From Clostridia bacterium (GTDB taxonomy: Bacteria; Bacillota_A; Clostridia; Oscillospirales; CAG-272), in NCBI GenBank assembly GCA_017468115.1, contig JAFUJS010000028.1, positions 1-21,608 of the forward strand: DNA of 21,608 bases. The letters are read 5' to 3'. Positions 6,593 through 21,399 of this stretch are shown here, piece after piece. The position numbers were made by a program, and so were the translations under genes. Each line of letters opens with the position of its first letter. The first letter of the stretch is position 1. Below the pieces are notes generated by a model. The model did no database searches. It was given only the letters and a program-made list of their open reading frames with translations, and was not told the DNA's origin.

Positions 6593-7810
6593 ATGGAAAA
6601 AATTAAAATGACAACACCCCTTGTTGAAATGGACGGGGACGAAATGACAAGAATTATATGGCAAATGATTAAGGATGAGCTTCTTTTGCCATTTGTGGAT
6701 TTGAAAACAGAGTACTACGACCTTGGCTTGCCCGAGAGGGAAAGGACAAAGGACAAGGTTACCTTTGATGCGGCATACGCAAACCAAAAATACGGCGTTA
6801 GCGTAAAGTGCGCCACAATCACTCCAAACAAGCAAAGGGTTGAGGAATATAACCTTTCCGAAATGTATAAAAGCCCTAACGGCACAATCCGTGCAATCCT
6901 TGACGGCACAGTTTTCCGTGCCCCAATCATAATTGACTCAATTAAGCCTGCTGTTCGCAACTGGAAAAAGCCAATTACCATTGCAAGGCACGCCTATGGC
7001 GACGTTTACAAGGCAACAGAGTATAGACCCGAGGGCGAGGGTAAGGCAGAGCTTGTATTTACCGACAAAAACGGCAACGAAAGCTTCCGCCAGACAATTT
7101 ACGACTTTGAGTGCCCGGGCGTTTTGCAGGGTCAGTACAATAAGGACACCTCAATTCGCTCCTTTGCACATTCCTGCTTTAAGTATGCAATCTCTACAAA
7201 GCAGGACCTTTGGTTCTCAACCAAGGACACAATCTCAAAGCAGTACGACCAAACCTTTAAGCTCATTTTCCAAGAGATTTACGAAAACGACTACAAGGCT
7301 GAATTTGAAAAGCTGGGCATTACCTATTTCTATACACTCATTGACGATGCGGTTGCAAGAGTTATCCGCTCCGAGGGTGGCTACATTTGGGCGTGCAAGA
7401 ACTACGACGGCGACGTTATGTCCGATATGGTCTCCACAGCCTTCGGCTCCCTTGCTATGATGACCTCTGTGCTTGTTTCTCCCGACGGAAAGTATGAGTA
7501 CGAGGCTGCCCACGGCACAGTTACAAGGCACTACTATCGTTACCTGAAGGGCGAGGATACCTCAACAAACCCAATGGCAACAATTTTCGCTTGGAGTGGT
7601 GCTCTTCGCAAGAGGGCAGAGCTTGACGGTCTTTGCGACCTTGCAAAATTTGCAGATAAGCTGGAGGAAGCATGCCTTGACACACTAAACGACGGTGTTA
7701 TGACAAAGGACCTGGTTGGTCTTGTTTCAGAGGGCTTTGAGGCTAGGGCAGTAAACACAATTACCTTCATTAAGGAAATCCGCGCAAGGCTTGAAGGCAA
7801 GCTTGCATAA
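6593..7810 (+). CDS. icd: NADP-dependent isocitrate dehydrogenase, eukaryote-type
   Basis: 405 residues. It catalyses oxidative decarboxylation of isocitrate to 2-oxoglutarate with NADPH formation, in the cytoplasm. The start is the ATG at 6593 (AGAGGA at 6581-6586); an upstream TTG at 6575 has no site. The protein belongs to the dimeric subfamily best known from eukaryotes, not the E. coli Icd type. [13 protein letters not shown] opens the fold. The substrate residues S94, N96, R100, R109, R132 and Y139 fall at the same numbers as in human IDH1 ([26 protein letters not shown]). The metal-site Asp stretch ([30 protein letters not shown]) and the NADP loop ([12 protein letters not shown]) are complete. 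It is a single-gene unit. It would supply 2-oxoglutarate for glutamate synthesis and hence amino donors and acceptors for aminotransferases. Confidence 0.96.
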
Positions 7811-7842
7811 TGCGTTGGCGGACGTCTATATACAAAAAGCAT

Positions 7843-7895
7843 AAAAAAGAGTGCGTATTACACCCTCAAAAAGGGCGCATACGCACTCTTTTTTT
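7843..7895 (+). terminator. Terminator of the isocitrate dehydrogenase gene
   Basis: AAAAAAGAGTGCGTAT (7843-7858) pairs perfectly with its complement at 7879-7894, with an inner CCCT/AGGG pair (7863-7866, 7872-7875) and a terminal T-run. A- and T-tracts on both sides make it a strong, possibly two-way terminator. Confidence 0.9.
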
Positions 7896-7933
7896 ATGTG
7901 CACTCGACTTTCAAAGGGTTGTCGCTAAAAAAA

Positions 7934-7977
7934 CTCATTTTTTGGTGGTCAAAATGCCCAAAAAATGAGGGGGGGGG
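7934..7977. repeat. 12-bp inverted repeat followed by a G9 tract
   Basis: CTCATTTTTTGG (7934-7945) and CCAAAAAATGAG (7958-7969) are perfect inverted copies around a 12-base loop. The outer G of the right arm begins a run of nine G (7969-7977). It has no T-tract and follows a complete terminator, so it does not look like a terminator. It lies ~50 bases upstream of the promoter of the large secreted-protein gene. This, the terminator before it and the promoter boxes after it account for most of the 327-base gap 7811-8137; no gene is seen there. Confidence 0.6.
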
Positions 7978-7987
7978 TAGAACGAAT

Positions 7988-8057
7988 TGTGCATTTGTCC
8001 AAAAATTTATTGGTTAACGTAAAATTCGTTGACTTTTAACCTGAAACAGACTAAAAT
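7988..8057 (+). promoter_or_regulatory. Promoter of the secreted beta-helix/peptide operon with upstream box
   Basis: TTGACT (8029-8034), a 17-base spacer and TAAAAT (8052-8057). The spacer begins TTTTAACCTG-like sequence shared with the promoter at 21135. An upstream box TGTGCANNTGTNCAAAA (7988-8004) recurs 41 bases ahead of the -35 in both regions. The leader is ~74 bases and ends in AGGAAAGGA before the ATG at 8138. Confidence 0.72.
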
Positions 8058-8137
8058 ATCGCATGGTGCAAAAGAAGGAATGATTCAAATTTTATTGACT
8101 TGTGGCATCAATTTATATTCAGGAAAGGAAATAAAAA

Positions 8138-11100
8138 ATGAACAAAATGAAAAAGATGGTTGTTATTCTTTGCGTTGCGCTGGTTACCATGCTTCTTATG
8201 GCTACAACCGCATTTGCGCAAACAACCGTAACAACCGAGGAAGAGCTTTCCGCAACGCTCCAAGCAGGCGGAGAGGTAGCACTGGGCGATGATATTGTAA
8301 TCAACAGTATGATAACAATACCAAGCGGTGTAGAAGTAACACTTGATTTGAACGGTCATAATATTACAGTTGCCGACAGCACAGGCGACCATATTTATGC
8401 AATTGACAACAATGGCACATTAACACTTAAGGACAGTGTTGGTACAGGTTCAATTTCAGCTCGTGGAATGTATAACCATGGTACTATGACAATTGAAAGT
8501 GGTAATTACGTAGGATTGGATTCCACAGGCGGCGCACCTGTATTCAACTATGGCAAGGTTACCATCAACGGCGGTGTGTTCAATGGTAGCGCATACACAT
8601 TGAATAACCAATCCGGTAGCGAAATGGTAATTAACAATGCAACCGTTAAGGGAACAGGCGGCATTTACAGTAACGGCGTAACTCTTGTAATTAACGGTGG
8701 TACATTTGAGGCAACAGGCTCAGGCAAACACAATCTATATATGTACAACTCTGACGTTACTATAAACGGCGGTAAATTCCACCACTCAGGTACAACATCA
8801 AATGTTTATCCTGCGGGCACAACATCAGTAGTTACAATTAAGGGCGGAGAATTTACAGTAGCTGACGGTTACTATTTAATCGATTCAACAGATACTCCTA
8901 CACTTAACATAGAAAACGGTACCTTTACAGGTATGGCACGCTTTAACGGAAGCATGGCAACTACCATTACAGGTGGTACATTTGATTTCTACAGCGGTAC
9001 ATATTTGGCTACAAACGCAACTATGACAATTTCAGGCGGTACATTCACATCTGATAGCTCCAAGACATTTGCAGAAAAATATCTTGCAGAGGACTATAAG
9101 CTTGACGATAACGGCACAGTAATAATTAAATATGTTGTTAAGGTAAATGGCACAGGTTACGCTACATTTGAAGAGGCTCTTACAGCTGCAAGCGCCTTGA
9201 TAGGTGATGTAACAGTAGAAATTTACGACAAGGTAACCTTAAGTACATCCTTGGCAGGCAGCTATGATTCTATCACCTTTGTCGGAAAGGACACAGATGC
9301 TGAAATTTACCTTGATGTTCAAGGCTATATCACAGCAACAGGTAAGAAGGTTGCATTTGATAGCTTGACACTCAGCAAGTCTGAGGGTGGATTCATAACT
9401 GATGCAGGCTTTATGAACGTTGCATTCGGTGTATACGACGTAGTGAGCGTTGATTACACAGGCTGCACATTTGCTAACGGTGCATATGCATCATCAGGAG
9501 TAGTTACATTTGAGGGCTGTACCTTCTATCGTTCACATAATAAGTACGGACTTTGGGCATACGGAAATGCAGATATAACTGTTAACAACTGTGTTTTTGA
9601 TGACTACCGCGGCATTAAGATGTATGCTGAGGGCGCAGCAAAGGTAACAGACTTAACAGTTACAAATACTGACTTTAGCGCAGTAAACGACAAGCCGGCA
9701 ATCGTTCTCACATATGGCGAAAGCGTTACACTTTTAGGCAATAAATATTCATCTACAGGTGTATTCGAGCTTGATAAGGACGGCGCTCCAAACGGAACAG
9801 CTATTGAGGCAGATATTGCAGACATTTCTTGTATGAACGATAACTACGCTGACTGCGGCGTTATCGTAGACGGCAAAATCTATGTAACACTTGCAGACGC
9901 AGTTGCAGCAAACGCAGTTACAGGCGACAGCACAGTTACACTTATGTATGATTCAACAGAAGTAATAGAGCTTCCTGAGGGAACAACTCTTGACAAAAAC
10001 GGTCATACTGCTGACAGCGTAACAGTAGCAGAGGTTAAGCCTGTGAATGTAAGCACATATGAGGAGCTCGTAGCTGCTCTTGCAAATGGAAAAAGCGTTA
10101 TTTTTAATAACGATATCGTAGCAACCGGCGCAGTAAGCGTATCCGGAAGCGAGCTTGAAATAGACCTTAACGGAAAGACCTTAACACTTACAGTTGGCGG
10201 TAACTACTTTAAGGCTGACGCAAACGTAATAATCAAAAACGGTACAGTAACCATCACAGGCTGTGTAGCTTCCGGTGACTGCATTGTGGGCATTGGAGAT
10301 TACAGCACAGTAGGCACACTTACACTTGACAACGTAGACGTAGTAGGTGACGGATATAGCTCAGCTTACGCAGTATTCTATGTTTACGGCACAAGCACAC
10401 TTAACATTGTAAACGGCTCCAGCGTAAACCTTGCAAATGATAATGCGGCTTATTCCGACGGTACACATTCAGGCGGCTTTATCAAATGTAACAGCACAGT
10501 AAACGGCAAGGTTAACATTTCTAATACAGAAGTTACTCTTACAAATGCTCAGATTGGTATTCTTGACGGTACAGTAGTTCTTGATACTGTTAAGCTTACA
10601 ATCAGCGGCGGTGACAATGCAATCAACCAGTCCGCACTTACAATTAAGAATTCCGAAATAACAATTTCCGATTGTAACGGCAGAGCTATTACACCTTGCT
10701 ATGGCGACGTAATAATCGAAAGCTCCAAGCTCACCCTTTCCAAGTGTACAGAGGGCGAAATCCGCTTCAAGAAAAACGTTACCGTAACTATTGACGAAAA
10801 TTCAACTATTGAAGAATGTACAATCTATGCTGACTCCTTGGCAACATCTGCAAAAATAAACGATGTAACTGTTGTTGGCACAGAGACAAGCATGGCAAAG
10901 GTTACCGTTTCCGAGGGAACAGTAACTATCAAGGAGCAGCCTAAGGGCAATACTCCACACGGCTATACAACTGCAACAACCATTTGGGGACAAACATGGG
11001 GTAATGCAACACAAAGCTACGTGATTAAGATTTATGCGGCTGACGGTACACTTATGGGTACTACAACATTGAACACAAATCTTGATGTTCCGATGGACGG

Positions 11101-12520
11101 CGACGTTGAGGTTACATGGCATATCTCTCTTGACCCTGCATCAGACACTGATGAATATTGGATTCAGGAGTGGTTTGTAGCTCCAAGCATTGACGTAAGG
11201 CCTACAAAGGCTGTGCTTTGCATTGACGGTGTTGACGTAAGCGAAGGCACAATTAAGCTTAACGGTCCTGACGACTTGAACATGATTTATGCCGCTGAGG
11301 TTGACGAAAACGGCAAAATCACAGAATACTGCACTATTGACAGTTTTGTAAGCAAAATAGGCGACTTGAAGGACAGAAGAATTTTGGTTCTTCGCGATGT
11401 AACTGTATCTACTGCTAAGATAAGATGCGTTGAGCTTATCTCCGGCGTAGAGGGTGGTGTAACCATTACAGATACCGACTACGAAAACTGGATTGATTTT
11501 GACTTCGTTACTGTTGGTCAAGGCGTTACTGTAAACGTTGGAAATCCATATTCAGGCGATAGCGAAAACGTAATTCTCGGTACTTTAATCGCAGAAGAAA
11601 TCTACTATCACTCTGCTAATGCAATAACAACCATCAAGGACGGCGGTAAGGTTGTTGTAAATGGCTCTGTAATTCTTCGCTATAATGACAGCCCTAACGC
11701 AGGTATTTATATCTACGGTGACGGAAACGACGCAACAATAGAATTTGACTGCGATTATTATATCGGTGCATATTCAGGTACCTTCTATGCTGAAAATGCA
11801 AACATCGAAACAGGCTACTTCCTGCTTAAGAATTCATATGACGATTCAACATACGCTGATATTGCAATGACTCTTAACAATTCTTCACTTAAGGTTGCCG
11901 GCACAACCGACGGTCAGGATAGCTTCATTATTGACGACCAAGCATCGGTGACACTTATAAACGGCGCTTCTATCTCCGATGTAAGAGAATTTAATATTCT
12001 TGCTGATACAAAGCTTACACTCAGCATTGATGAAAGCAGTAAAATCAGCGCAACAAACGTATCAGTTGCACAGGGCGTTCCGTTTGAGGCATCCAAAAAT
12101 GAGGACGGTACATACAGCGTAGCAGTTAAGACCTACACTCTTGAGGACATATTTGTATTCCTTGGCTATTCTAAGCGCGAGGATGATAATTCCATTACAG
12201 CAGGCTTTACAATCGACCACGAAGCTCTTGCAATTTACAAGGCTCAAAACGGTAATGTAAGCATTGATTTCGGCGCGGTATTCGCAATCGGTTCAATTGC
12301 AAACGGCTCATATGAAAAGTCACTTTCCGCATACAAGTCAACAAATAACTATAATGTTATTCTGACAAATGTAAGCGATGCAGAGACTACTGTTGTACTT
12401 TCAATGTATGTTACAGTTGGCAACGAAAAGTACTATGTTACAGAAAACGCTGTAGTAACAGATCCATCACAGGTTGGAGGAATAACCTTCACCACAGCAC
12501 CTAAAAAGGAGGATGAATAA
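8138..12520 (+). CDS. Large secreted right-handed beta-helix surface protein
   Basis: 1460 residues with AAAGGA 8 bases before the ATG. A signal peptide (residues 1-27, cleavage after TTAFA) shows export. Several tandem beta-helix blocks follow: the first (~30-325) is full of turns such as TINGGVF, VINGGTF, TINGGKF, TIKGGEF, TITGGTF and TISGGTF, as in pectate-lyase-like and adhesin folds. New blocks open with related sequences (TTEEELSATLQAGGEVALGD near 30, GYATFEEALTAAS near 335, KIYVTLADAVAAN near 575, STYEELVAALANGKSVIFNN near 638). A segment around 937-1060 containing TIWGQTWGNATQSYVIKIY looks Ig-like, more helix-type repeats follow to ~1320, and a final beta-domain (~1331-1450) contains AETTVVLSMYVTVGNEKYYV. 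No LPXTG, SLH or dockerin motif and no hydrophobic tail is visible, so its cell-wall attachment is unclear. No catalytic residues could be identified; adhesion or glycan binding is inference. Confidence 0.85.
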   Translation: MNKMKKMVVILCVALVTMLLMATTAFAQTTVTTEEELSATLQAGGEVALGDDIVINSMITIPSGVEVTLDLNGHNITVADSTGDHIYAIDNNGTLTLKDSVGTGSISARGMYNHGTMTIESGNYVGLDSTGGAPVFNYGKVTINGGVFNGSAYTLNNQSGSEMVINNATVKGTGGIYSNGVTLVINGGTFEATGSGKHNLYMYNSDVTINGGKFHHSGTTSNVYPAGTTSVVTIKGGEFTVADGYYLIDSTDTPTLNIENGTFTGMARFNGSMATTITGGTFDFYSGTYLATNATMTISGGTFTSDSSKTFAEKYLAEDYKLDDNGTVIIKYVVKVNGTGYATFEEALTAASALIGDVTVEIYDKVTLSTSLAGSYDSITFVGKDTDAEIYLDVQGYITATGKKVAFDSLTLSKSEGGFITDAGFMNVAFGVYDVVSVDYTGCTFANGAYASSGVVTFEGCTFYRSHNKYGLWAYGNADITVNNCVFDDYRGIKMYAEGAAKVTDLTVTNTDFSAVNDKPAIVLTYGESVTLLGNKYSSTGVFELDKDGAPNGTAIEADIADISCMNDNYADCGVIVDGKIYVTLADAVAANAVTGDSTVTLMYDSTEVIELPEGTTLDKNGHTADSVTVAEVKPVNVSTYEELVAALANGKSVIFNNDIVATGAVSVSGSELEIDLNGKTLTLTVGGNYFKADANVIIKNGTVTITGCVASGDCIVGIGDYSTVGTLTLDNVDVVGDGYSSAYAVFYVYGTSTLNIVNGSSVNLANDNAAYSDGTHSGGFIKCNSTVNGKVNISNTEVTLTNAQIGILDGTVVLDTVKLTISGGDNAINQSALTIKNSEITISDCNGRAITPCYGDVIIESSKLTLSKCTEGEIRFKKNVTVTIDENSTIEECTIYADSLATSAKINDVTVVGTETSMAKVTVSEGTVTIKEQPKGNTPHGYTTATTIWGQTWGNATQSYVIKIYAADGTLMGTTTLNTNLDVPMDGDVEVTWHISLDPASDTDEYWIQEWFVAPSIDVRPTKAVLCIDGVDVSEGTIKLNGPDDLNMIYAAEVDENGKITEYCTIDSFVSKIGDLKDRRILVLRDVTVSTAKIRCVELISGVEGGVTITDTDYENWIDFDFVTVGQGVTVNVGNPYSGDSENVILGTLIAEEIYYHSANAITTIKDGGKVVVNGSVILRYNDSPNAGIYIYGDGNDATIEFDCDYYIGAYSGTFYAENANIETGYFLLKNSYDDSTYADIAMTLNNSSLKVAGTTDGQDSFIIDDQASVTLINGASISDVREFNILADTKLTLSIDESSKISATNVSVAQGVPFEASKNEDGTYSVAVKTYTLEDIFVFLGYSKREDDNSITAGFTIDHEALAIYKAQNGNVSIDFGAVFAIGSIANGSYEKSLSAYKSTNNYNVILTNVSDAETTVVLSMYVTVGNEKYYVTENAVVTDPSQVGGITFTTAPKKEDE

Positions 12521-12522
12521 TT

Positions 12523-12666
12523 ATGAAGTATGTATCTCCAAAATATAGTATCGAGTCTATTGAAACCGAGGACATTATGGGAGCGAGCGCAAATGTTACT
12601 CAAACCGAAAACAATACAGACACATCAATGACATTTGATGACCTTATAAATATGTTCACAAAATAA
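12523..12666 (+). CDS. Small peptide, EDIM-x-AS family, member 1
   Basis: 47 residues. It starts 3 bases after the beta-helix stop and has a perfect AAAGGAGG (12505-12512) inside the end of that gene, 10 bases before the ATG, so translation is well supported. The N-terminal half (MKYVSPKYSIESIETEDIMG, then AS) matches the peptide encoded at 21204 at 12 of 22 positions without gaps: Y3, P6, Y8, I10, E14, EDIM 16-19 and AS 21-22 plus the initiator. The C-terminal half is polar and acidic, ends FDDLINMFTK, and differs from the other copy. There is no Cys, signal peptide or membrane segment. A conserved front and divergent tail resemble precursor or signalling peptides, but no processing enzyme is adjacent. 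Function unknown. Confidence 0.8.
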   Translation: MKYVSPKYSIESIETEDIMGASANVTQTENNTDTSMTFDDLINMFTK

Positions 12667-12672
12667 TAGCTG

Positions 12673-12700
12673 AAGGCACAGAGAAATCTGTGCCTTTTTT
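12673..12700 (+). terminator. Terminator of the beta-helix/peptide operon
   Basis: AAGGCACAGA (12673-12682), loop GAAA, TCTGTGCCTT (12687-12696) and a T-run to 12700. It begins 7 bases after the peptide stop, showing that the large gene and the peptide share one transcript. Confidence 0.92.
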
Positions 12701-12752
12701 GCGTCTTAAAATGAATAATTTTTCAAAAAAACGAAAAATGTAGGGAAAAATG

Positions 12753-12782
12753 TTGACATATATAAAACATGTAGTTTATAAT
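12753..12782 (+). promoter_or_regulatory. Promoter of the aromatic amino-acid fermentation operon
   Basis: TTGACA (12753-12758), an 18-base spacer and TATAAT (12777-12782). Transcription should begin near 12789. It is the only good promoter seen before the long co-directional gene run that ends at the terminator at 21005. Confidence 0.85.
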
Positions 12783-12814
12783 ATATTTTAACGTACTAAA
12801 GCGTTTTTCATGGC

Positions 12815-12839
12815 AAAAAGGGAAAAATATTCCCTTTTT
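12815..12839 (+). other. Terminator-like leader hairpin, candidate attenuator
   Basis: AAAAAGGGAA (12815-12824) and TTCCCTTTTT (12830-12839) pair perfectly around a 5-base loop. The hairpin lies ~26 bases after the predicted transcription start and before the first coding frame. The T-run is part of the stem and the GC core is only 3 bp, so it may be a weak terminator, an attenuator or a transcript-stabilising leader. No competing antiterminator was found by eye. Confidence 0.45.
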
Positions 12840-12850
12840 ATTCATTTTAG

Positions 12851-13117
12851 AGCAGGAGAGACAAAAAGGACCCAAGAATATTCGACTACCTAGTGCTTGT
12901 GCTTACCGCAGGACTTCTTGTCCTCTTTGGCTACCACAAAAACGGCTTTACAGGAGGCTTTGGCGAAGCAATCCAGTCGGGGGTTAGCGTTTCTCCGCTG
13001 ATTGGCGTAATTTGTATGTTTTCCTCTCTTGTGGTTACCTTTGTTGTAAGCCTGCTTACACAACCACCGAAAAAGGGAATTATTGACACAGCATTTAACA
13101 AGAAGGTGATTGAATAA
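12851..13117 (+). pseudogene. Remnant of a sodium:solute symporter-like transporter gene
   Basis: The frame is open from 12851 to the TAA at 13115-13117 (about 88 residues) but has no ATG. Two hydrophobic segments (FDYLVLVLTAGLLVLFGY; SPLIGVICMFSSLVVTFVVS) end in SLLTQPPKKGIIDTAF, which resembles the C-terminal end of SSS-family symporters, proteins normally near 500 residues. An AGGAG (12854-12858) lies 8 bases before position 12867, where a start codon would be expected and none exists. This suggests that a deletion fused the original leader to the gene's 3' end. A GTG at 12893 or an ATA at 12878 (AAAAGGA 7 bases upstream) could start a short membrane protein. The stop overlaps the next ATG (TAATG), preserving coupling to paaK. 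The family call is moderate. Confidence 0.5.
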
Positions 13118-14421
13118 TGATTTGGGCAAGGGAAGAAACCCTGTCTAGGCAGGAAATGGACGACCTTCAGCTTGAAAGATTGAAGGAAACAGTAAATAGA
13201 GTATACGAAAAGGTTTTGCCATACAGAAAAAAGATGGACGAGGCAGGCATTAAGCCAAAGGACATAAAAAGCCTTGCGGACTTAAAAAGGCTCCCCTTCG
13301 TTACAAAGCAGGACCTAAGAGATAATTATCCCTTTGGGCTGTTTGCAGTTCCAAAGGAGGACCTTTTAAGAATACACGCATCCTCGGGCACAACAGGTAA
13401 GCCTACCGTTGTTGGCTATACCGAGGGAGATATGCAGGTGTGGACAGAGTGCGTTTCACGTATTGCCTGTGCAGGCGGCGCTGACAAAAACGATGTTGCG
13501 CAGATTTGCTTTGGCTACGGTATGTTTACAGGTGCTCTTGGTCTACATTACGGACTTGAAAATATTGGCGCAACAATAGTTCCCTCGTCAACAGGAAACT
13601 CCGAAAAGCAGCTTATGTATATGAAGGACTTTGGCACAACATTGCTTGTTGCCACACCATCCTATGCGTTAAGGCTTGCAGAGGTTGCAAGGGAGATGGG
13701 TATTGACCCGCAGAGGGACCTTAAGGTTAAAATCGGTCTTGTGGGCAGTGAGCTTTTGACCGACGCAATGCGTGAGGAAATGCACAAGTATTGGGGCAGC
13801 GATATGCTGGTTACCTCTAACTACGGTATGAGTGAGCTGATGGGCCCCGGTGTTAGTGGCGAGTGTGAGTATATGTGCGGTATGCATATAAACGAGGACT
13901 TCTTTATTCCCGAAATTATAAACCCCGAAACCGGTGAGGTTTTGCCTGCCGGTGAGTGGGGCGAGCTTGTTATAACCTGTATTAAGAAGGAGGCGCTACC
14001 TCTTATCAGATACAGGACAAAGGACATAACAAGGCTGATATATGAGCCATGTAAGTGTGGAAGAACTACTGTCAGAATGGAGAACCTCTCCGGCAGAAGC
14101 GACGATATGCTTAAAATCCGTGGCGTTAACGTGTTCCCAAGCCAGATTGAGGAGGTTGTCCTCGGTACAGAGGGTCTTGGTCCACACTATGAAATTATTG
14201 TTGAAAGAGATGGCTATTCAGATAAGCTGACTGTTAGGGTTGAGCTGCTTAAGGCAACCGACTCCTTTAAGGAGCTGGAGGCTATCGAGAGGGCTGTGAG
14301 AAATAAGCTTAAGGTTATGCTTGGACTTGATGCCAAGGTAATGCTTGAGTCCCCCAACACCCTTGCTCGCTTCGAGGGTAAGGCAAAAAGAGTTAGGGAT
14401 TTACGAAAGGAGCAGAAATAA
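13117..14421 (+). CDS. paaK: Phenylacetate-CoA ligase family protein, copy 1
   Basis: 434 residues, an AMP-forming acyl-CoA ligase of the PaaK type. It links arylacetates to CoA with ATP, or runs in reverse on arylacetyl-CoA. The phosphate loop is SSGTTGKPT (89-97), the core motif YGMSE 236-240, RYRTKD 298-303, and the hinge region [17 protein letters not shown] (326-342) leads to the C-terminal domain with GKAKRV near the end. CKCGRT (312-317) is also typical. The ATG overlaps the preceding stop (TAATG), and iorA follows after 1 base. The paralogue after iorB shares all these motifs but differs at many positions, so this is an old duplication. The aryl substrate (phenyl-, hydroxyphenyl- or indoleacetate) is inferred from the neighbours. 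Confidence 0.93.
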   Translation: MIWAREETLSRQEMDDLQLERLKETVNRVYEKVLPYRKKMDEAGIKPKDIKSLADLKRLPFVTKQDLRDNYPFGLFAVPKEDLLRIHASSGTTGKPTVVGYTEGDMQVWTECVSRIACAGGADKNDVAQICFGYGMFTGALGLHYGLENIGATIVPSSTGNSEKQLMYMKDFGTTLLVATPSYALRLAEVAREMGIDPQRDLKVKIGLVGSELLTDAMREEMHKYWGSDMLVTSNYGMSELMGPGVSGECEYMCGMHINEDFFIPEIINPETGEVLPAGEWGELVITCIKKEALPLIRYRTKDITRLIYEPCKCGRTTVRMENLSGRSDDMLKIRGVNVFPSQIEEVVLGTEGLGPHYEIIVERDGYSDKLTVRVELLKATDSFKELEAIERAVRNKLKVMLGLDAKVMLESPNTLARFEGKAKRVRDLRKEQK

Positions 14422-14422
14422 T

Positions 14423-16162
14423 ATGGCAGAAAAGAGAATAATGCTTGGAAACGAGGCTATTGCCCGTGGCGCATACGAGGCAGGAGTTAAGGTTAGCAGC
14501 TCCTATCCCGGCACACCAAGCACAGAAATCAGTGAATTTTTAGCAAAATATGATGAGGTATATACAGAGTGGGCGCCAAACGAAAAGGTTGCCCTTGAGG
14601 TTGCGGCAGGCTCGGCTATTGCAGGCGTGCGCTCTATGGCTTGTATGAAGCACGTAGGACTAAATGTTGCCTCTGACCCTCTATATACCCTTGCATACAC
14701 AGGCATTAACGCAGGACTTGTTATTGTTGTTGCTGACGACCCGGGTATTGCCAGCTCACAAAACGAGCAGGATACAAGAATGATTGCAAGAAGCGCTCAT
14801 TTACCACTTGTGGAGCCGGCAGACAGCAGCGAGGCAAAGGAGTATTTCAAGTACGCCTTTGAGCTTAGCGAAAAATACGATACACCCGTTATTTTCAGAA
14901 CAACCACAAAGCTTTCTCACTCTCAAAGCGTTGTTGACCTGTGTGAAAGAGTGGAGGTAGAGGACAAGGTATACGAAAGAAGCGTGCCTAAGTACGTTAT
15001 GATGCCTGCATCCGCTATCGGCAGACACAAGGTGGTTGAGGCAAGAGAGGACAAGATGGCTCTTGATGCCCCGGACTTCCCAATTAACAGAGTTGAATAT
15101 AACGACAAGAAAATCGGCTTTATTACCTCAGGCGTGCCCTATCAGTATGTTAAGGAGGCTTGCCCTAATGCAAGCGTTTTGAAGCTGGGTGTAATCAACC
15201 CACTGCCTAAGGCTCTTATTGAGGAATTTGTGAAAGAGGTAGAAACGGTTTACATCTTTGAGGAGCTGGAGCCTGTTATCGAGGAGCAGGTAAGAGCCTG
15301 GGGACTTAATGTAAAGGGCAAGGAGCTGTTTACAAAGCAGGGCGAATACAGCGCAAATATGCTTAAAAAGGTGCTCTTTGATGAAGAGGTGTGCGCCTTT
15401 ACTAAGGCAGAGGCACCGGCACGTCCGCCAATTCTTTGTCCGGGCTGTCCACACAGAAGCGTATTTTCCGTTCTTAATAAGCTGAAGATACACGCAGCAG
15501 GCGACATCGGCTGTTATACCCTTGGCGCAGTTGCTCCACTCAGCGTTATTGATACAACAATTTGTATGGGCTCATCTATTTCCCTGCTTCACGGTATGGA
15601 AAAGGCAAAGGGCAAGGAGTACATAAAGAATTGGGTTGCTACTATCGGCGACTCCACCTTCCTTCATACAGGCGTAAACTCACTTATCAATATGGTTTAC
15701 AACAAGTCCACAGGCACAGTTATGATTCTTGACAACCGTACAACAGGTATGACAGGACATCAGGAGCATGCGGCAACAGGCAAGACATTAAAGGGCGAGG
15801 ACACATATGCTATTGACCTGGCAGAGCTTTGCCGTAGCATGGGCGTTCCAAGCGTTATTGAAATCAATGCCTTTGACGTTAGCGGACTTGAGAGCGTAAT
15901 TAAGGAAAGCGTAAAGAGCGACACACTTACAGTTATTATCGCAAAAGCGCCTTGCGCACTTTTGAAGGGTCAGAAATTCCCATTCAAGTGCAAGGTTGAC
16001 AGCGAGAAATGTAAAAAGTGTGGCATGTGCATGAAGATAGGCTGTCCTGCAATGACCAAGGCAGAGGACGGCACAGTAAAAATTGACGAGGCTATGTGTA
16101 ACGGCTGCGGACTTTGCAAGAGCTACTGCAAGTTTGGCGCTATTTCACAGGTTGAGAGATGA
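14423..16162 (+). CDS. iorA: Indolepyruvate ferredoxin oxidoreductase, alpha subunit
   Basis: 579 residues. It oxidatively decarboxylates aryl-2-oxoacids (indolepyruvate, phenylpyruvate, hydroxyphenylpyruvate) to arylacetyl-CoA, passing electrons to ferredoxin; it is cytoplasmic and pairs with IorB. The start MAEKRIMLGNEAIARG is set by AAAGGAG (14406-14412). The N-terminal pyrimidine-binding domain shows YPGTPSTEISEFL. The TPP-binding region has CPGCPHRSVF and GDIGCYTLGA (from residue 360) and later GDSTFLHTG. Two 4Fe-4S clusters close the protein: C530, C533, C536, C541 and C559, C562, C565, C569. The length is close to that usual for the family. It overlaps the iorB leader; the first ATG of the iorB frame overlaps its TGA. 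Confidence 0.96.
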   Translation: MAEKRIMLGNEAIARGAYEAGVKVSSSYPGTPSTEISEFLAKYDEVYTEWAPNEKVALEVAAGSAIAGVRSMACMKHVGLNVASDPLYTLAYTGINAGLVIVVADDPGIASSQNEQDTRMIARSAHLPLVEPADSSEAKEYFKYAFELSEKYDTPVIFRTTTKLSHSQSVVDLCERVEVEDKVYERSVPKYVMMPASAIGRHKVVEAREDKMALDAPDFPINRVEYNDKKIGFITSGVPYQYVKEACPNASVLKLGVINPLPKALIEEFVKEVETVYIFEELEPVIEEQVRAWGLNVKGKELFTKQGEYSANMLKKVLFDEEVCAFTKAEAPARPPILCPGCPHRSVFSVLNKLKIHAAGDIGCYTLGAVAPLSVIDTTICMGSSISLLHGMEKAKGKEYIKNWVATIGDSTFLHTGVNSLINMVYNKSTGTVMILDNRTTGMTGHQEHAATGKTLKGEDTYAIDLAELCRSMGVPSVIEINAFDVSGLESVIKESVKSDTLTVIIAKAPCALLKGQKFPFKCKVDSEKCKKCGMCMKIGCPAMTKAEDGTVKIDEAMCNGCGLCKSYCKFGAISQVER

Positions 16163-16176
16163 GGGGGGCGACGATT

Positions 16177-16737
16177 ATGAATATAATGGTAGTTGGCGTT
16201 GGCGGACAAGGCACACTTCTCACCAGCAGAATTATCGGTAAGACTGCCCTTCAGGGTGGCTACGATGTTAAGCTTTCAGAGGTGCACGGAATGGCACAGC
16301 GTGGCGGTAGCGTTGTTACCTTTGTAAGATTCGGCACTAAGGTTTACGAGCCTGTTTGCGAGGAGGGCACGGTTGACGTGCTTATCTCCTTTGAAAGGCT
16401 TGAGGCGCTAAGATACGCGCACTTCCTAAAGCCGGAGGGCACACTCATTGTAAACGACACAAGAATTGACCCAATGACAGTAGTTATCGGCGCTAAGGAA
16501 TACCCAAAGGATATTCTTAGCACGCTTGCAAAAAACCACAAGCTCTACACCATAGATGCAGGCAGCATAGCAAGGGAAATAGGCAACTCCAAGGTGCTGA
16601 ATACAGTAGTTCTTGGCGCATCCGCAAAGCATATCGGCTTTGAAAAAGAGGATTGGCTAAGGGTGCTTGAGGCAACTGTACCACCAAAAACCATAGAAAT
16701 CAACAAAAAAGCTTTTGAATTAGGATATGAGGCATAA
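16177..16737 (+). CDS. iorB: Indolepyruvate ferredoxin oxidoreductase, beta subunit
   Basis: 186 residues, the gamma-type catalytic partner of IorA. The start at 16177 is preferred because GAGGGGGG (16161-16168) lies 8 bases upstream and the protein then begins [13 protein letters not shown], the conserved first strand and loop (GVGGQG 7-12). An alternative ATG at 16159 would add six residues. [20 protein letters not shown] is the family hallmark. The end [16 protein letters not shown] to [13 protein letters not shown] is complete. The second paaK starts 1 base after the stop, implying one transcript and matched amounts. Confidence 0.95.
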
Positions 16738-16738
16738 T

Positions 16739-18037
16739 ATGATTTGGAATAAAGAAATGGAATGTATGTCCAATGAGGACAAGAAAAAGCTACAAAGCGA
16801 AAGACTTATAAAGCTGGTAAAATATGTTTACGAAAACGTAGAATTTTACCGCAAGAGGATGGATGAGCACGGGGTTAAGCCGGAGGACATTAAGTCCATT
16901 GACGACATTACCAAGCTCCCATACACCACAAAGGACGACCTTCGTGATACATACCCCTTCGGACTGTTTGCCGCTGACCACAAGGATATTGTAAGAATAC
17001 ACGCATCCTCAGGTACAACAGGTAAGGCAACGGTTGTTTGCTACACCCAATACGATATCGACGTTTGGAGCGAGTGCGTTGCACGCTGTATGGCTATGGC
17101 AGGCGTAACAAACGAGGACATTATTCAGGTTGCCTATGGCTATGGACTATTTACAGGCGGTCTTGGCGCACACTACGGCGCTGAAAAGCTTGGCGCTATG
17201 GTTGTTCCAATGAGCACAGGTAACTCAAAGAAGCTGACAACAATGATGGTTGACTTTGGCGCAACCGCAATTGCCTGCACACCATCATATCTTCTTCACC
17301 TTTCCGAGGTTTTAAGAGACGAGGGCAACCTTGACAAAATCAAGCTAAAGACAGCAATTTGCGGAGCTGAGCCTTGGACAGAGAAGATGAGACACGAGAT
17401 TGAAACCCGTCTTAACATCTCCGCCCACGACATATACGGACTTTCCGAGATTATGGGTCCGGGTGTTGCCTGCGACTGTAAGGAGCATGCAGGACTTCAT
17501 ATCTGCGACGACCATTTCTATCCGGAAATCATTGATGCAAAAACTCTTGAGCCGGTAGCAGACGGAGAAACCGGCGAGCTTGTATTTACAACTCTGACAA
17601 AAGAGGGTATTCCTCTTATTCGTTACAGAACAAAGGATTTAACCAGCATCACAAGAGAAAAGTGCGCCTGTGGCAGAACAAGTCCACGTATTTCCCGCTT
17701 TAAGGGAAGAAGCGACGATATGCTTATTATTCGTGGCGTTAACGTATTCCCAAGCCAGGTTGAGGCTGCGCTTATCGAGGTTGAAGAGGTTACACCTCAC
17801 TATATGATGATAGTAGACAGAGAAAACAACCTTGACACTCTTGAAATTCAGGTTGAAATTGATGCAAAATACTACACCGACGAAATTCGTGGAATTGAAA
17901 AGCTAACCAAGAAGATTGGTCAGGTTATTCAAAGCGCCCTTGGCATCAGCGCAAAAATCAAGCTAATGGGTCCAAACTCACTAAAGCGCAGTGAGGGCAA
18001 GGCAGTTCACGTAATTGATAACAGAAAGCTATATTAA
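16739..18037 (+). CDS. paaK: Phenylacetate-CoA ligase family protein, copy 2
   Basis: 432 residues, starting [11 protein letters not shown], like copy 1 (MIWAREETLS). Motifs are intact: SSGTTGKAT (90-98), YGLSE (233-237), [30 protein letters not shown] and SEGKAVHV near the end. The ATG is 1 base after the iorB stop; an upstream AGGATATGAGG region gives a modest binding site. Having one PaaK on each side of IorAB suggests two specificities (for example phenyl- against indoleacetate), two directions, or a heteromer. In a fermenter the reaction may run from arylacetyl-CoA to free acid with energy conservation, but direction cannot be read from sequence. Confidence 0.93.
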
Positions 18038-18050
18038 AGGAGAAAAGGCT

Positions 18051-18479
18051 ATGACAGTAAATCAGGTATCCGTTTTTATTGAAAACAGACAGGGCAGACT
18101 TGGACAGGTGCTTAATGTTTTGAAGGAGAACGACATAAACATTTTGTCAATCAGCTTGGCTGATACAGCAGAATATGGTCTTTTAAGACTTATTGTAAAT
18201 AAGCCTGAGGAGGCAAAGGACGTGCTTCTTAAGGCAGGCTTTTCCAGCCTTCTTACGGAGGTGCTCATAATCAAGGTGCCACACAAAACAGGCGCCTTGC
18301 AGCAAATCCTTGACGTTATTGCTAAGGAAAATATCAGCATTGAATACATGTATGGCTTGAGCGTTGAAACAACAGACGCATCAATCGTTATGAAGACAAA
18401 CGAGCTTGATAAGGCTTGCCAAATTCTCAAAAACAGCCACATCGGCACAATGTCAAGTAAGGAAATTGCATCTCTTTAA
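18051..18479 (+). CDS. Tandem ACT-domain protein, probable aromatic amino-acid sensor
   Basis: 142 residues made almost wholly of two ACT domains: the first from ~4 to 70 (VSVFIENRQGRLGQVLNVL, typical ligand-binding turn), the second from ~72 to 140 (VLIIKVPHKTGALQQILDVI). The ATG at 18051 has AAAGGAG (18036-18042) 8 bases upstream, overlapping the paaK stop; a longer frame from 18015 lies inside paaK. Stand-alone tandem ACT proteins commonly accompany paaK/ior genes. ACT domains bind amino acids, so allosteric control of the ligases or the oxidoreductase is a reasonable inference. No DNA-binding domain is present. Confidence 0.9.
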   Translation: MTVNQVSVFIENRQGRLGQVLNVLKENDINILSISLADTAEYGLLRLIVNKPEEAKDVLLKAGFSSLLTEVLIIKVPHKTGALQQILDVIAKENISIEYMYGLSVETTDASIVMKTNELDKACQILKNSHIGTMSSKEIASL

Positions 18480-18483
18480 TAAA

Positions 18484-19299
18484 ATGATTATAGATTTTCA
18501 TACCCATATTTTCCCTGACAAAATTGCAGGGGCAACAATTAAGGCCCTTTCCGAAAATGCAAGCATACCTGCCCATAGTGATGGCACTATGGCGGGGCTG
18601 CTTTCCTCTATGGAAAAGTCCGGCGTTAATATTTCTATCAATTTGCCTGTGGTAACAAGACCCAAGCAAATGGATAGCATAAACGCTTTTGCACAGCAGA
18701 TAAACAGGGAAAGAGCGACACAGGGTGGTATTATTTCCTTTGCAGGCATCCACCCGGACACAGAGGACACAGACCTTTGGCTTGAAAAAATCAAGGGGCA
18801 GGGCTTTCTTGGAATAAAGCTTCATCCCGACTATCAGGGCGTATTCTTTGACGACCCAAGATATATAAAAATTCTGAAAAAGGCAAAGGAGCTTGACCTA
18901 ATTACCGTTACCCACGCAGGACTTGACGGTGCCTTTGTGGGACAGGAGATAAAATGCACCCCTAGGCGTGTAATTTCAGCTCTTGACAAAATAGGTGGCT
19001 ACGACAGGCTTGTGCTTGCCCACCTTGGCGGAAACGAGCTTTACTCGGAGGTTTATGAGCTTTTGGCAGGAGAGGACGTTTATTTTGACACCTCTTACGT
19101 GCTGAAATCAACCTCAAGGGATGACCTTTGCCGTATGGTAGAAAGGCACGGAGAGGACAAAATTCTCTTTGCCACCGACAGCCCCTGGCAGGACCAGGGC
19201 GAAATGATAGATATTCTTCGTGGCTACGACCTCGGTGCGCTTGCCACAGATAAAATCCTTTCAAAAAACGCAATAAAACTAATAGGTGAAATATGTTAA
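18484..19299 (+). CDS. Amidohydrolase-family metal-dependent hydrolase
   Basis: 271 residues beginning MIIDFHTHIFPDKIAG, 4 bases after the ACT stop. The binding site is weak, so translational coupling is likely. The metal-ligand pattern of the amidohydrolase TIM barrel is visible: H6 and H8 (DFHTH), GIKLHP (K112, H114), H144 (VTHAG), H180 (LAHLGG) and D232 (LFATDSPW). It fits the amidohydrolase-2/TatD-like group, whose members include hydrolases and non-oxidative decarboxylases. No signal peptide is seen. The substrate is unknown; its place between an ACT sensor and an aminotransferase suggests an aromatic or amino-acid-derived compound, but this is not certain. It overlaps the aminotransferase gene by 7 bases. 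Confidence 0.85.
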   Translation: MIIDFHTHIFPDKIAGATIKALSENASIPAHSDGTMAGLLSSMEKSGVNISINLPVVTRPKQMDSINAFAQQINRERATQGGIISFAGIHPDTEDTDLWLEKIKGQGFLGIKLHPDYQGVFFDDPRYIKILKKAKELDLITVTHAGLDGAFVGQEIKCTPRRVISALDKIGGYDRLVLAHLGGNELYSEVYELLAGEDVYFDTSYVLKSTSRDDLCRMVERHGEDKILFATDSPWQDQGEMIDILRGYDLGALATDKILSKNAIKLIGEIC

Positions 19300-20480
19300 A
19301 CGAAAAAATGTATGGCTTAGGCAGTAAGCGTTCAGTTATTCGTGAGATTTTTGAATACTGTAAGGCTCGTGCCAATGAAATCGGGGCAGACAAGGTTTTT
19401 GACTTTAGTATCGGAAACCCAAGCGTTCCTGCTCCAAAGGAAATAAATGATGCAATAGTAGAGCTTGCAAGAAATGAAAGCTCTGTGCTTTTGCACGGCT
19501 ACACCTCTGCGCAGGGCGACCTTGGCGTAAGAATGGCAATTGCCAACGAAATTAACGAAAAATTCGGCGCAGGCGTAAATGAAAACTCCATTTATATGAC
19601 CTGCGGTGCTGCCGCATCACTTACAATTTCATTAAAGGCTCTTTTAAATCCGGGGGATGAGTGCGTGGTTTTTGCCCCCTTCTTTACAGAGTATCGTGTC
19701 TTTGTTGAAAACGCAGGCGGCACTCTTGTTGTGTCAGAGCCTATGGAGAAAACCTTCCAGATTGACACAGAGGACCTGGCAAGTAAAATTACAGAAAAAA
19801 CAAGGGCGGTTATTGTAAACTCTCCAAACAACCCAAGCGGAGTTGTTTACAGCGAGGACACAATCAAGGCTCTTTGCAGGGTTCTTGTGGACAAGCAAAG
19901 GGAATATGGAAATCCAATATACCTAATCGCTGACGAGCCATATAGAGAGCTTGTGTTTGATAACATTAAGGTACCATACCTTATGAATTACTACGATAAC
20001 ACTATCGTTTGCTATTCCTACTCAAAGGCTCTTTCCTTGCCGGGAGAGAGAATTGGCTATATTGCAGTAAGCCCTAAGGCACAGGACAGCCAAAGGGTAT
20101 ACCTTGCTGTGTGCGGTGCAGGCAGAAGCCTTGGCTATGTTTGTGCACCAAGCCTGTTCCAGCAGGTAATCAAGAAAACAATGGGCGCTAAGGTTGACGT
20201 AAATATTTACAAGGAAAACAGAGATATTTTGTATGGCGCACTTACCGAATATGGCTACGAGTGTGTTCATCCGGACGGCGCATTTTACCTCTTTGTAAAG
20301 GCGCTTGAGGAGGATGCCTATAAGTTTTTTGAAAAGGCAAAATCAAAGGAAATTTTGGTTGTGCCCTGCGACGACTTTGGTGTTAGCGGCTATGTAAGAA
20401 TTGCTTACTGTGTAGACAAGGAGCGCATAGTAAACGCACTTCCCGCCTTCAAGGCACTTTACGAGGAGTATAATAAATGA
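19293..20480 (+). CDS. PLP-dependent class I/II aminotransferase
   Basis: 395 residues of fold-type I. The cofactor lysine is K245 in SYSKALSLPGERIGY; other conserved points are NSPNNPSG (176-183), ADEPYREL (D214) and the carboxylate-binding Arg of GYVRIAY near the C-terminus. The start overlaps the upstream stop by 7 bases and has AGGTGA. Given IorAB and PaaK upstream, the likely role is conversion of Phe, Tyr or Trp to the 2-oxoacid used by IorAB, with 2-oxoglutarate as probable acceptor. Aspartate- or alanine-type specificity cannot be excluded from sequence. It also overlaps the next gene by 4 bases (ATGA). Confidence 0.92.
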   Translation: MLNEKMYGLGSKRSVIREIFEYCKARANEIGADKVFDFSIGNPSVPAPKEINDAIVELARNESSVLLHGYTSAQGDLGVRMAIANEINEKFGAGVNENSIYMTCGAAASLTISLKALLNPGDECVVFAPFFTEYRVFVENAGGTLVVSEPMEKTFQIDTEDLASKITEKTRAVIVNSPNNPSGVVYSEDTIKALCRVLVDKQREYGNPIYLIADEPYRELVFDNIKVPYLMNYYDNTIVCYSYSKALSLPGERIGYIAVSPKAQDSQRVYLAVCGAGRSLGYVCAPSLFQQVIKKTMGAKVDVNIYKENRDILYGALTEYGYECVHPDGAFYLFVKALEEDAYKFFEKAKSKEILVVPCDDFGVSGYVRIAYCVDKERIVNALPAFKALYEEYNK

Positions 20481-21001
20481 AGAAAATATTGTTAGTAGCA
20501 TCAGCTATTATACTTGTCTTTGCCTTGCTTTGTAGCTGTGGCAGCACCGTTACATATGAGGAGAAGGTCCAGTATTACAAGGACCAAGGCTACGTTGAAA
20601 TAGGCGGAGTCGAGGAGATAAGAAATAGCTTTTCAAAATCCCTTAATGACCCACAGGCAAGGGTAGAGCCTGAGGGAGCGCCAAGCCTACTTTCCACAAC
20701 GGAAGACCCGGAGGAGCAGGGTGGGCAGATAGAAATCACCACAGGCATAGGAAACAGCTTTTTTGATAAGCTAAGCGGCTTTAGCGGACAGATTAATATC
20801 GCTCTTGGACTTGAGCTTTTTCAGCCGGAGCGTGGTGTTTTGCTAAAGCATACAGATAGCCTGAAGCAAATCAGCGTCGTGGAATTTGCCTCAGAGAAGG
20901 AAGCAGACGACTACTTAAGCACCCACGGGCTTATAGGCATCACCTACGAGCAAGAGGGCAAGGTGGTTACATTCTTCTTTTCGGGAAGTCTTTACTATTA
21001 A
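20477..21001 (+). CDS. Small lipoprotein of unknown function
   Basis: 174 residues. A basic-hydrophobic signal (MKKILLVASAIILVFALL) ends in the lipobox LCSC, with acylated C21, so it is anchored outside the membrane. The mature part begins with a polar stretch (YEEKVQYYKDQGYVEIGG), followed by an acidic linker and a compact C-terminal domain (GQINIALGLELFQ, VVEFASEKEADDYLSTHG). I recognise no family. Its ATG overlaps the aminotransferase stop (ATGA) and AGGAG lies upstream, so it is the last gene of the fermentation operon. A surface role linked to that pathway is possible but unsupported. Confidence 0.85.
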   Translation: MKKILLVASAIILVFALLCSCGSTVTYEEKVQYYKDQGYVEIGGVEEIRNSFSKSLNDPQARVEPEGAPSLLSTTEDPEEQGGQIEITTGIGNSFFDKLSGFSGQINIALGLELFQPERGVLLKHTDSLKQISVVEFASEKEADDYLSTHGLIGITYEQEGKVVTFFFSGSLYY

Positions 21002-21004
21002 AGA

Positions 21005-21031
21005 AAGAAGGCTTTGTGCCTTCTTTTTTTA
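21005..21031 (+). terminator. Terminator ending the fermentation operon
   Basis: AAAGAAGGC (21005-21013), loop TTTGT, GCCTTCTTT (21019-21027) and T to 21031. It begins 4 bases after the lipoprotein stop and is the first clear terminator since 12839. Confidence 0.9.
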
Positions 21032-21093
21032 TCGAAATTTGTAAGGCTGAATTTGTAATTTGCACAAAAAATTTTAGAGCAAAAAACAAAAAA

Positions 21094-21163
21094 TGTGCAA
21101 GTGTACAAAAGTTGTAAAAACCGTGTAAACGCCATTGATTTTTAACCTGGATTATATTATAAT
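21094..21163 (+). promoter_or_regulatory. Promoter of the second peptide locus with shared upstream box
   Basis: TTGATT (21135-21140), a 17-base spacer and TATAAT (21158-21163). The -35 and early spacer (TTGATTTTTAACCTG) match the promoter at 8029 at 14 of 15 bases. The box TGTGCANNTGTNCAAAA (21094-21110) is 41 bases before the -35, the same distance as there. An additional TTGCACA/TGTGCAA inverted pair (21060-21066, 21094-21100) overlaps the box on this copy only. Confidence 0.75.
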
Positions 21164-21203
21164 CTACCTTGTTTTTAAGTAGTTCGGCAAGGCAGGTAAC
21201 AAA

Positions 21204-21356
21204 ATGGCATATTCAGCACCCATATACAAAATAATAACCTTTGAGAGTGAGGACATAATGGCGGCAAGCCCCGGCGAGGATGTTTTCTTTCCCGCAGGCT
21301 TGAATTTTGACAGCGACAGGAGCAGCTCTGTTAACGCAAGCGACATTTTGGGTTAA
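21204..21356 (+). CDS. Small peptide, EDIM-x-AS family, member 2
   Basis: 50 residues, starting about 40 bases after a good -10. The binding site is modest (AAGGCAGG, 21189-21196). The front half (MAYSAPIYKIITFESEDIMA, then AS) aligns without gaps with the peptide at 12523 at 12 of 22 positions. The tail is acidic and Ser-rich (GEDVFFPAGLNFDSD, ending NASDILG) and unrelated in detail. There is no Cys, signal peptide or membrane helix. It has its own promoter and terminator. Conservation of the coded protein despite different surroundings, plus matching promoters, is the main evidence that it is real. Function unknown; see findings. Confidence 0.75.
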   Translation: MAYSAPIYKIITFESEDIMAASPGEDVFFPAGLNFDSDRSSSVNASDILG

Positions 21357-21368
21357 ATATAAAATAAG

Positions 21369-21399
21369 GAAACAGCTTTTTTCGGCTGTTTCTTTTTTT
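21369..21399 (+). terminator. Terminator after the second peptide gene
   Basis: GAAACAGC (21369-21376), 8-base loop, GCTGTTTC (21385-21392) and seven T (21393-21399). It lies between the peptide and the next lipoprotein gene. As no clear promoter follows it, partial read-through may supply that gene. Confidence 0.85.

Follow-up and report, generated by a model that had tools for sequence, protein, structure and literature searches.

The stretch of DNA analysed here, 21,608 nucleotides (nt) of contig JAFUJS010000028.1 from the Clostridia bacterium assembly GCA_017468115.1 and hereafter called the window, carries on its forward strand two small paralogous genes for peptide 1 (positions 12523 to 12666, 47 aa) and peptide 2 (21204 to 21356, 50 aa), which we consider to be, quite probably, precursors of ribosomally synthesized and post-translationally modified peptides (RiPPs) of an LPP-like clostridial kind (LPP, linear polyphosphorylated peptide), co-produced with a surface protein and acting with it outside the cell. 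Both are predicted as precursors from the list of open reading frames (ORFs), profile matches and the register of their leader. That the members of the family are precursors is well supported; that they work jointly with the surface protein is our leading guess. Two features appear to be new: the precursors are scattered over the genome, and most of them are linked to an exported protein, the C-terminal domain of which varies in step with the core of the peptide. A first-pass annotation of this DNA had left signalling, export or folding of surface proteins and a RiPP-like precursor open as readings, the last of which is now the best supported, by the leader register, the co-occurrence with a kinase and four linked gene sets. 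It had also known of no named system, yet an LPP gene set was published in May 2026 for Paenibacillus/Bacilli (Popov et al., Nat Commun 2026, PMC13381572).

The two peptides, whose position, length and relatedness were all confirmed as first annotated, are identical without gaps at 12 of their first 22 residues (M1, Y3, P6, Y8, I10, E14, E16 to M19, A21 and S22). They are the best-matching pair among the 72 M-start ORFs of 30 to 100 aa in the window, and in 60 dinucleotide shuffles of it the top small-ORF pair reached only 7 to 10 of the 22 positions. Further copies in related genomes, a check that had been named beforehand, were found in abundance. A profile of the two window rows gave matches at E≤10 in all 12 related genomes (G001 to G012), weak in G011 and G012, and a 25-row profile, read at E≤1, scored 12, 5, 14, 12, 22, 3, 2, 8, 1 and 2 times in G001 to G010, respectively, together with two weak ones in each of G011 and G012. 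At E≤0.001, 25 of 29 genomes of the genus contain the peptide, with as many as 22 matches in a single genome, and a broader 22-row profile, to which G005, G029, G063, G083 and G228 of the sample itself had donated rows, detected peptides in 23 of the 245 class genomes, with up to 23 copies per genome. Comparisons of the peptides with Pfam and NCBIfam gave nothing convincing, a protein search with a single peptide returned only the self-match, and the peptide profile had no match in the PDB. Many members have, as judged by eye, an ending that resembles D[IL]L[FG]. One copy in G005 (L113, C90) contains an in-frame stop.

The peptide family is under purifying selection. The ratio of nonsynonymous to synonymous differences per site (pN/pS) was 0.04 to 0.20 in five groups of same-length copies from one genome sharing at least 60% identity, a synonymous bias that was another of the signs looked for and that was found here between paralogous copies. 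When the 21 pairs formed by the 7 copies of G003 are added up, the core shows 193 synonymous differences and no nonsynonymous one; the core has a lower pN/pS than the leader in G003, in G001 and slightly in G002, an equal one in G005 and a higher one in G008, always at or below 0.24. Same-genome pairs with a core identity of at least 0.9 lie beside exported partners with a mean body identity of only 0.22, which is what unrelated pairs show. Given the low pN/pS and these near-invariant cores behind dissimilar partners, the peptide genes look translated and their tail is not variable inside one genome. The description of a conserved front with a variable tail therefore holds for the window pair, whose tails do differ, but not for same-length copies within one genome, which are nearly invariant and for which a hypervariable core was ruled out.

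The conserved positions of the front form a strict register. Counted from the Tyr, the 61 unique peptides found in the window and in G001 to G010 have Tyr in 61 cases, Pro(+3) in 61, Asp(+14) in 61, Ile/Val(+15) in 60 and Ser(+19) in 60, and the 33 peptides from distant genomes, a set that leaves out one further match without the YxxP anchor, have Tyr in 28 and Phe in 5, Pro in 33, Asp(+14) in 31, Ile/Val(+15) in 32 and Ser(+19) in 33. If cleavage past residue 19 is assumed, these positions become Tyr(-17), Pro(-14), Ile/Val(-2) and Ser(+3), and the conserved front has the register of a lasso/LPP-type RiPP leader. The predicted leaders would comprise residues 1 to 19 of peptide 1 (12523 to 12579; Tyr3 as -17, Pro6 as -14 and Ile18 as -2) and of peptide 2 (21204 to 21260), with a cleavage site placed by register alone, and Ser22 (12586 to 12588 in peptide 1 and 21267 to 21269 in peptide 2) would be core Ser(+3), the phosphorylation site predicted from conservation and by analogy to BsfA and LppA. 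For BsfA, the precursor of the phosphorylated lasso peptide of Bradymonas, the same Tyr(-17), Pro(-14) and Ile(-2) are reported, with a kinase that phosphorylates Ser3, promoted by an RRE (RiPP recognition element) protein (PMC10368454). The Bsf system differs in having a lasso cyclase and the leader peptidase B2 (PMC10368454), and its ring residue pair Gly1/Asp8 is missing in the window peptides. The predicted cores of the latter start with GASANVTQT (peptide 1) and AASPGEDVF (peptide 2) and depart from the lasso ring rule (Gly1 with Asp/Glu at 7 to 9), the former having Gly1 without an acid at 7 to 9 and the latter acids at 6 and 7 but Ala1. As for B2 (Transglut_core3, PF13471), none of 21 genomes scored over the cut-off and there were 2 weak sub-threshold matches. 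With no B2 over the cut-off in these 21 genomes and unfit ring residues in the window peptides, a lasso peptide proper was rejected. Rumen lasso precursors, for example of Ruminococcus flavefaciens, resemble the family in the predicted length of their leaders, 19 residues, and in the Y3 and P6 of leaders such as MTYNKPSVEKVASFKDNTM; they are unlike it in their penultimate Thr and lasso B/C enzymes, and no link to exported proteins is described in the portion of that report at hand (PMC7533575).

It is true of the window that no maturation enzyme is nearby, as had been remarked, but many relatives, the closest four not among them, encode such enzymes elsewhere in the genome. PF05402 identified a small stand-alone RRE-like ORF in every one of G005 to G012; a kinase-like gene adjoins it in 7 of these 8 genomes (not in G010), and in 6 of the 7 a signal-peptidase-like (SpI-like) gene does so too. 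The kinase belongs to no Pfam family and has weak similarity in NCBIfam to HprK-related kinases; the best fold matches of its model (pLDDT 92) are HPr kinase and PEP carboxykinase (E 2.6e-5). Among PDB entries the RRE matches TbiB1 (2e-5) and PbaB1 (0.0016), both from lasso systems, and LppB (9x8z; 0.006), the RRE of LPP; an equivalent of LppB Asn33 is present in 11 of 11 RREs and, as judged by eye, one of Asp70 in 7 and of Phe74 in 8 of them. The SpI-like peptidase has His and Asp invariant in 13 sequences and Ser wherever the called start is not truncated.

In the class sample the kinase (E≤1e-10) is present in 74 of 245 genomes and in all 23 that carry the peptide (Fisher p=7e-14, kinship ignored). 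The full-length type accounts for 22 of these 23, G045 having the longer type only. The co-occurrence is likewise complete with a peptide profile made only from the window and G001 to G010 (11 of 11 peptide-positive genomes) and after the row-donor genomes are dropped (18 of 18). The second, longer HprK-like type just mentioned (about 290 to 320 aa) occurs in further class genomes too and lies near an RRE and an ABC exporter in locus L237. In four loci (L248, L252, L253 and L254) the genes follow each other in the order exported protein, peptide, kinase, RRE and SpI, with a 139-aa ORF between peptide and kinase in L254. An ABC exporter and an NTP-transferase accompany the set in L248 and L253, an NTP-transferase in L252, and an exporter in L254, whose contig ends soon afterwards. 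Around 24 kinase loci, from which the RRE, SpI, NTP-transferase and ABC models were partly built, we counted an RRE in 21, SpI in 18, an NTP-transferase in 6 and an ABC match in 9, 7 of the latter being exporter-like ORFs of 540 to 590 aa.

From these data we infer the following chemical steps. The PqqD-like RRE would bind the YxxP leader, the HprK-like kinase would phosphorylate core Ser3 (residue 22), the SpI/SipW-like serine peptidase would cut off the leader near residue 19, and the NTP-transferase and ABC exporter, where present, would finish and export the core. A sugar on the peptide is a guess prompted by lasso systems, in which an NTP-transferase of this kind has been linked to hexose addition on the phosphorylated Ser (PMC9266682). 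The published LPP system offers a close precedent: LppK phosphorylates core Ser3 and cleavage by LppS, a SpI, is RRE-dependent (PMC13381572). LPPs share with the present family the YxxP leader, Ser at core position 3, an HprK-like kinase, a discrete RRE and a SpI/SipW-like peptidase with conserved Ser/His/Asp, as well as, in some clusters, an NTP-transferase and an ABC exporter, which in LPPs is MsbA-like. On the other hand, the clostridial peptides mostly have EDIxxxS in place of xFETxxS; there are up to 22 to 23 mostly dispersed precursors per genome, against 1 to 3 per cluster for LPPs, for which capsule loci are reported as well (PMC13381572); and, unlike in published LPPs, they mostly stand beside an exported-protein gene, in gut Clostridia. 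In the main text of that paper the strings 'Clostridi', 'surface', 'secreted', 'extracellular' and 'orphan' occur nowhere (PMC13381572). A literature search, from which most subscription papers lay outside, found nothing evidently related beyond PMC13381572 and PMC7533575, and we do not claim absence in print.

The link to exported proteins seen by the first-pass annotation proved real and far stronger than the window alone showed. Signal peptides were called with our own simple hydrophobicity score. The loci of the window and G001 to G010 hold 69 profile matches, which after removal of one duplicate (L006 and L159 are one place), one fragment from a copy with a stop and 8 contig-start cases leave 59 peptides; 32 of these lie behind a signal-peptide-like gene, 8 behind an ORF cut by the contig end and 8 before an exported gene, the other 11 not fitting the pattern, so that 48 of 59 have an exported neighbour, the 8 contig-cut partners included. 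Among the 33 distant peptides 27 are behind an exported gene, 3 behind a contig-cut one, 1 before one and 2 do not fit (31 of 33 with an exported neighbour, 3 contig-cut partners included). The baseline for exported genes is 60 of 1183 (0.051), a rough figure from 80 loci around one gene. Nearly all upstream-partner cases have a spacing between a 29-nt overlap and a 19-nt gap. In 39 peptide/partner pairs core identity was correlated with identity over the 110 C-terminal residues of the partner (r=0.69) but not over the partner body (r=0.06), and within-genome permutation of the peptides reached r=0.69 in 0 of 2000 trials. The last 150 residues of the window partner are modelled as a beta-rich domain (AlphaFold2, pLDDT 92), for which no PDB match was found at E≤0.001. 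Since most precursor genes are dispersed beside exported-protein genes, joint production of peptide and surface protein is probable, and the peptide would act with this partner outside the cell, perhaps via the partner's C-terminal domain.

A number of observations weigh against reading the family as LPP-like precursors that act with their partners. The enzyme searches covered the genomes of relatives, the organism of the window being represented by its 21,608 nt alone. Those closest to it by the central gene IorA, G001 to G004, in spite of their 12, 5, 14 and 12 peptide matches have no detected kinase and no stand-alone RRE by PF05402, the RRE match of G004 being part of a 460-aa ORF. RlmA and TrmA, neighbours of the kinase in G005 and G006, are missing from these four as well, so the cause may be a loss in the lineage or a systematic gap. 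The 29 genomes of the genus divide into 17 with kinase and peptide, 8 with peptide only, 4 with neither and 0 with kinase only (p=0.02). The peptide stands beside the kinase in only 4 of the 24 kinase loci and in 4 of the 23 peptide-positive class genomes. The kinase profile had no sequence match in the PDB, and the fold matches of its model are low in TM-score (0.28 to 0.59 on the model). BsfA variants with Ala at Tyr(-17) or Leu(-12), as well as double and triple leader variants, were still phosphorylated (PMC10368454), and the leader motif alone is therefore no proof of kinase dependence. The LPP consensus YxxPxVLxHQxIxFETxxS, with 18 from Tyr to Ser (PMC13381572), is not followed by the present peptides, in which this spacing is 19 and other residues stand between Pro and Ser; given the differences in spacing, consensus, dispersal and exported partner, we call the family an LPP-like variant and not a member. 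Finally, a comparison of function and linkage by reversed gene order gave mixed results: it went against function in L155, the sole complete reversed-order locus of a main class, where core and C-terminal domain do not match (0.28 identity), and the ABC-permease loci are alike among themselves. In view of L155, linkage of adjacent DNA may explain the relation between core and C-terminal domain partly or wholly.

Of the competing explanations, the one that survives best is an ordinary multi-precursor LPP system whose products serve bacterial conflict or signalling, the surface-protein neighbours merely giving co-expression; we regard it as possible, if somewhat less plausible than action with the partner. 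The patchy gain and loss of LPPs in Bacilli has been tied by its authors to biological conflict (PMC13381572), and the production of one core from many loci per genome would suit a public signal, but neither the frequency of exported upstream neighbours (27 of 33 distant peptides against the rough 0.051) nor a core that tracks the partner's C-terminal domain and not its body is what mere co-expression leads one to expect. The peptides might otherwise be unmodified small cytoplasmic proteins that help the neighbouring surface protein to be translated, folded or exported, with the leader and kinase signal an ancestral or clade effect. The close coupling to the exported gene, the intact and selected copies in G001 to G003, genomes without a detected kinase, and the identical or near-identical cores behind different partners would all agree with such a helper. 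We nonetheless consider it unlikely in the face of the exact lasso/LPP leader register with its conserved Ser(+3), the 23 of 23 kinase co-occurrence with its four linked clusters, and stand-alone copies such as peptide 2, which has no partner in its apparent transcription unit. Equally improbable is a spreading recombination cassette of peptide gene and 3' end of the exported gene, adjacent without functional meaning, for while cassettes of the window are missing at otherwise collinear sites of its closest relative, some copies sit at contig ends as expected of repeats, and core and partner C-terminus are co-inherited with no match in the reversed L155, the same arrangement is seen again, next to other exported proteins, in distant class genomes, and the absence of nonsynonymous changes from the G003 core beside 193 synonymous ones argues against recent copying only.

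Returning to LPP-like precursors acting with a surface protein, it is tempting to speculate on a new mode of surface display, in which a translationally coupled phosphopeptide, possibly decorated with sugar and matured by one shared enzyme set, would, outside the cell, bind or join the C-terminal domain of its partner and serve, for example, to anchor it to polysaccharide of the surface. Because the main-class loci of one genome make a near-identical peptide, this would be a species-specific attachment tag. We hold this particular mode to be rather doubtful.

In the window itself, peptide 1 starts 2 nt past the stop codon of its exported partner, a protein of 1460 aa (8138 to 12520) with a signal-peptide-like N-terminus by our hydrophobicity score and no Pfam family above the cut-off. 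The partner's last 150 aa (12068 to 12517) include the predicted C-terminal beta-rich domain common to partners in relatives (16 to 35% identity). The perfect Shine-Dalgarno sequence ascribed to peptide 1 right behind this gene was confirmed by eye as AGGAGG at 12507 to 12512. A promoter-like site, TTGACT-17-TAAAAT (8029 to 8057), lies upstream of the putative operon of exported protein and peptide 1, and a possible terminator, the stem ggcacag/ctgtgcc followed by a T run (12675 to 12700), was noticed by eye past peptide 1 and is absent from the terminator scan list. Sequence scans placed a promoter-like site TTGATT-17-TATAAT (21135 to 21163) before peptide 2 and a terminator-like stem-loop (21366 to 21395) past it, by which peptide 2 looks like its own transcription unit. 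It had been placed just before a lipoprotein gene; lipoprotein genes are indeed close by on both flanks, but the peptide appears to be transcribed separately from them. The two promoter-like sites share TTGAYTTTTAACCTG, a 15-mer with exact copies only there in 619,693 bases scanned; a wider regulon shared via TTGAYTTTTAACCTG may exist but found no support, the exact copies being confined to these two loci. Other genomes showed no common upstream element except sigma-70-like boxes and small genome-specific repeats.

The nearest relatives of the window organism are Clostridia metagenome-assembled genomes from ruminant guts. In L001, the closest by IorA (96% identity), window positions 7796 to 12710, with the exported protein and peptide 1, have no counterpart and the flanks align. 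Positions 21002 to 21355, with peptide 2 alone, are also without counterpart there, so the neighbourhood of peptide 2 is not conserved in L001, and both lipoprotein genes align. L006 has, likewise behind the icd gene, an exported protein whose C-terminal domain is related (35% identity) together with a peptide (52% identity over 42 aa), and this arrangement suggests that the site of peptide 1 is older than the window species.

As to the remaining genes, positions 13117 to 18037 hold what we take to be two phenylacetate-CoA-ligase-like genes flanking an indolepyruvate oxidoreductase-like pair, in a gene order kept in most of the first 33 relatives. The 74-aa ORF at 12893 to 13117 corresponds to the end of an L001 ORF of 555 aa, presumably by its look a solute symporter, about 1.4 kb of which is missing in the window. 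The ORF at 140 to 619 starts with a PLGRW motif that we take to be RHS-core-like, and is possibly the end of an RHS-type protein.

This work assigns a group of small hypothetical proteins from gut Clostridia to a family. As 20 of the 24 kinase loci have no adjoining precursor, mining of gene clusters would, our data suggest, miss most precursors here. The paper that introduced LPPs describes their role, like that of the related phosphorylated paeninodins, as unknown (PMC13381572), and the association of LPP-like precursors with exported proteins, which we see in several lineages of the class, directs attention to the cell surface.

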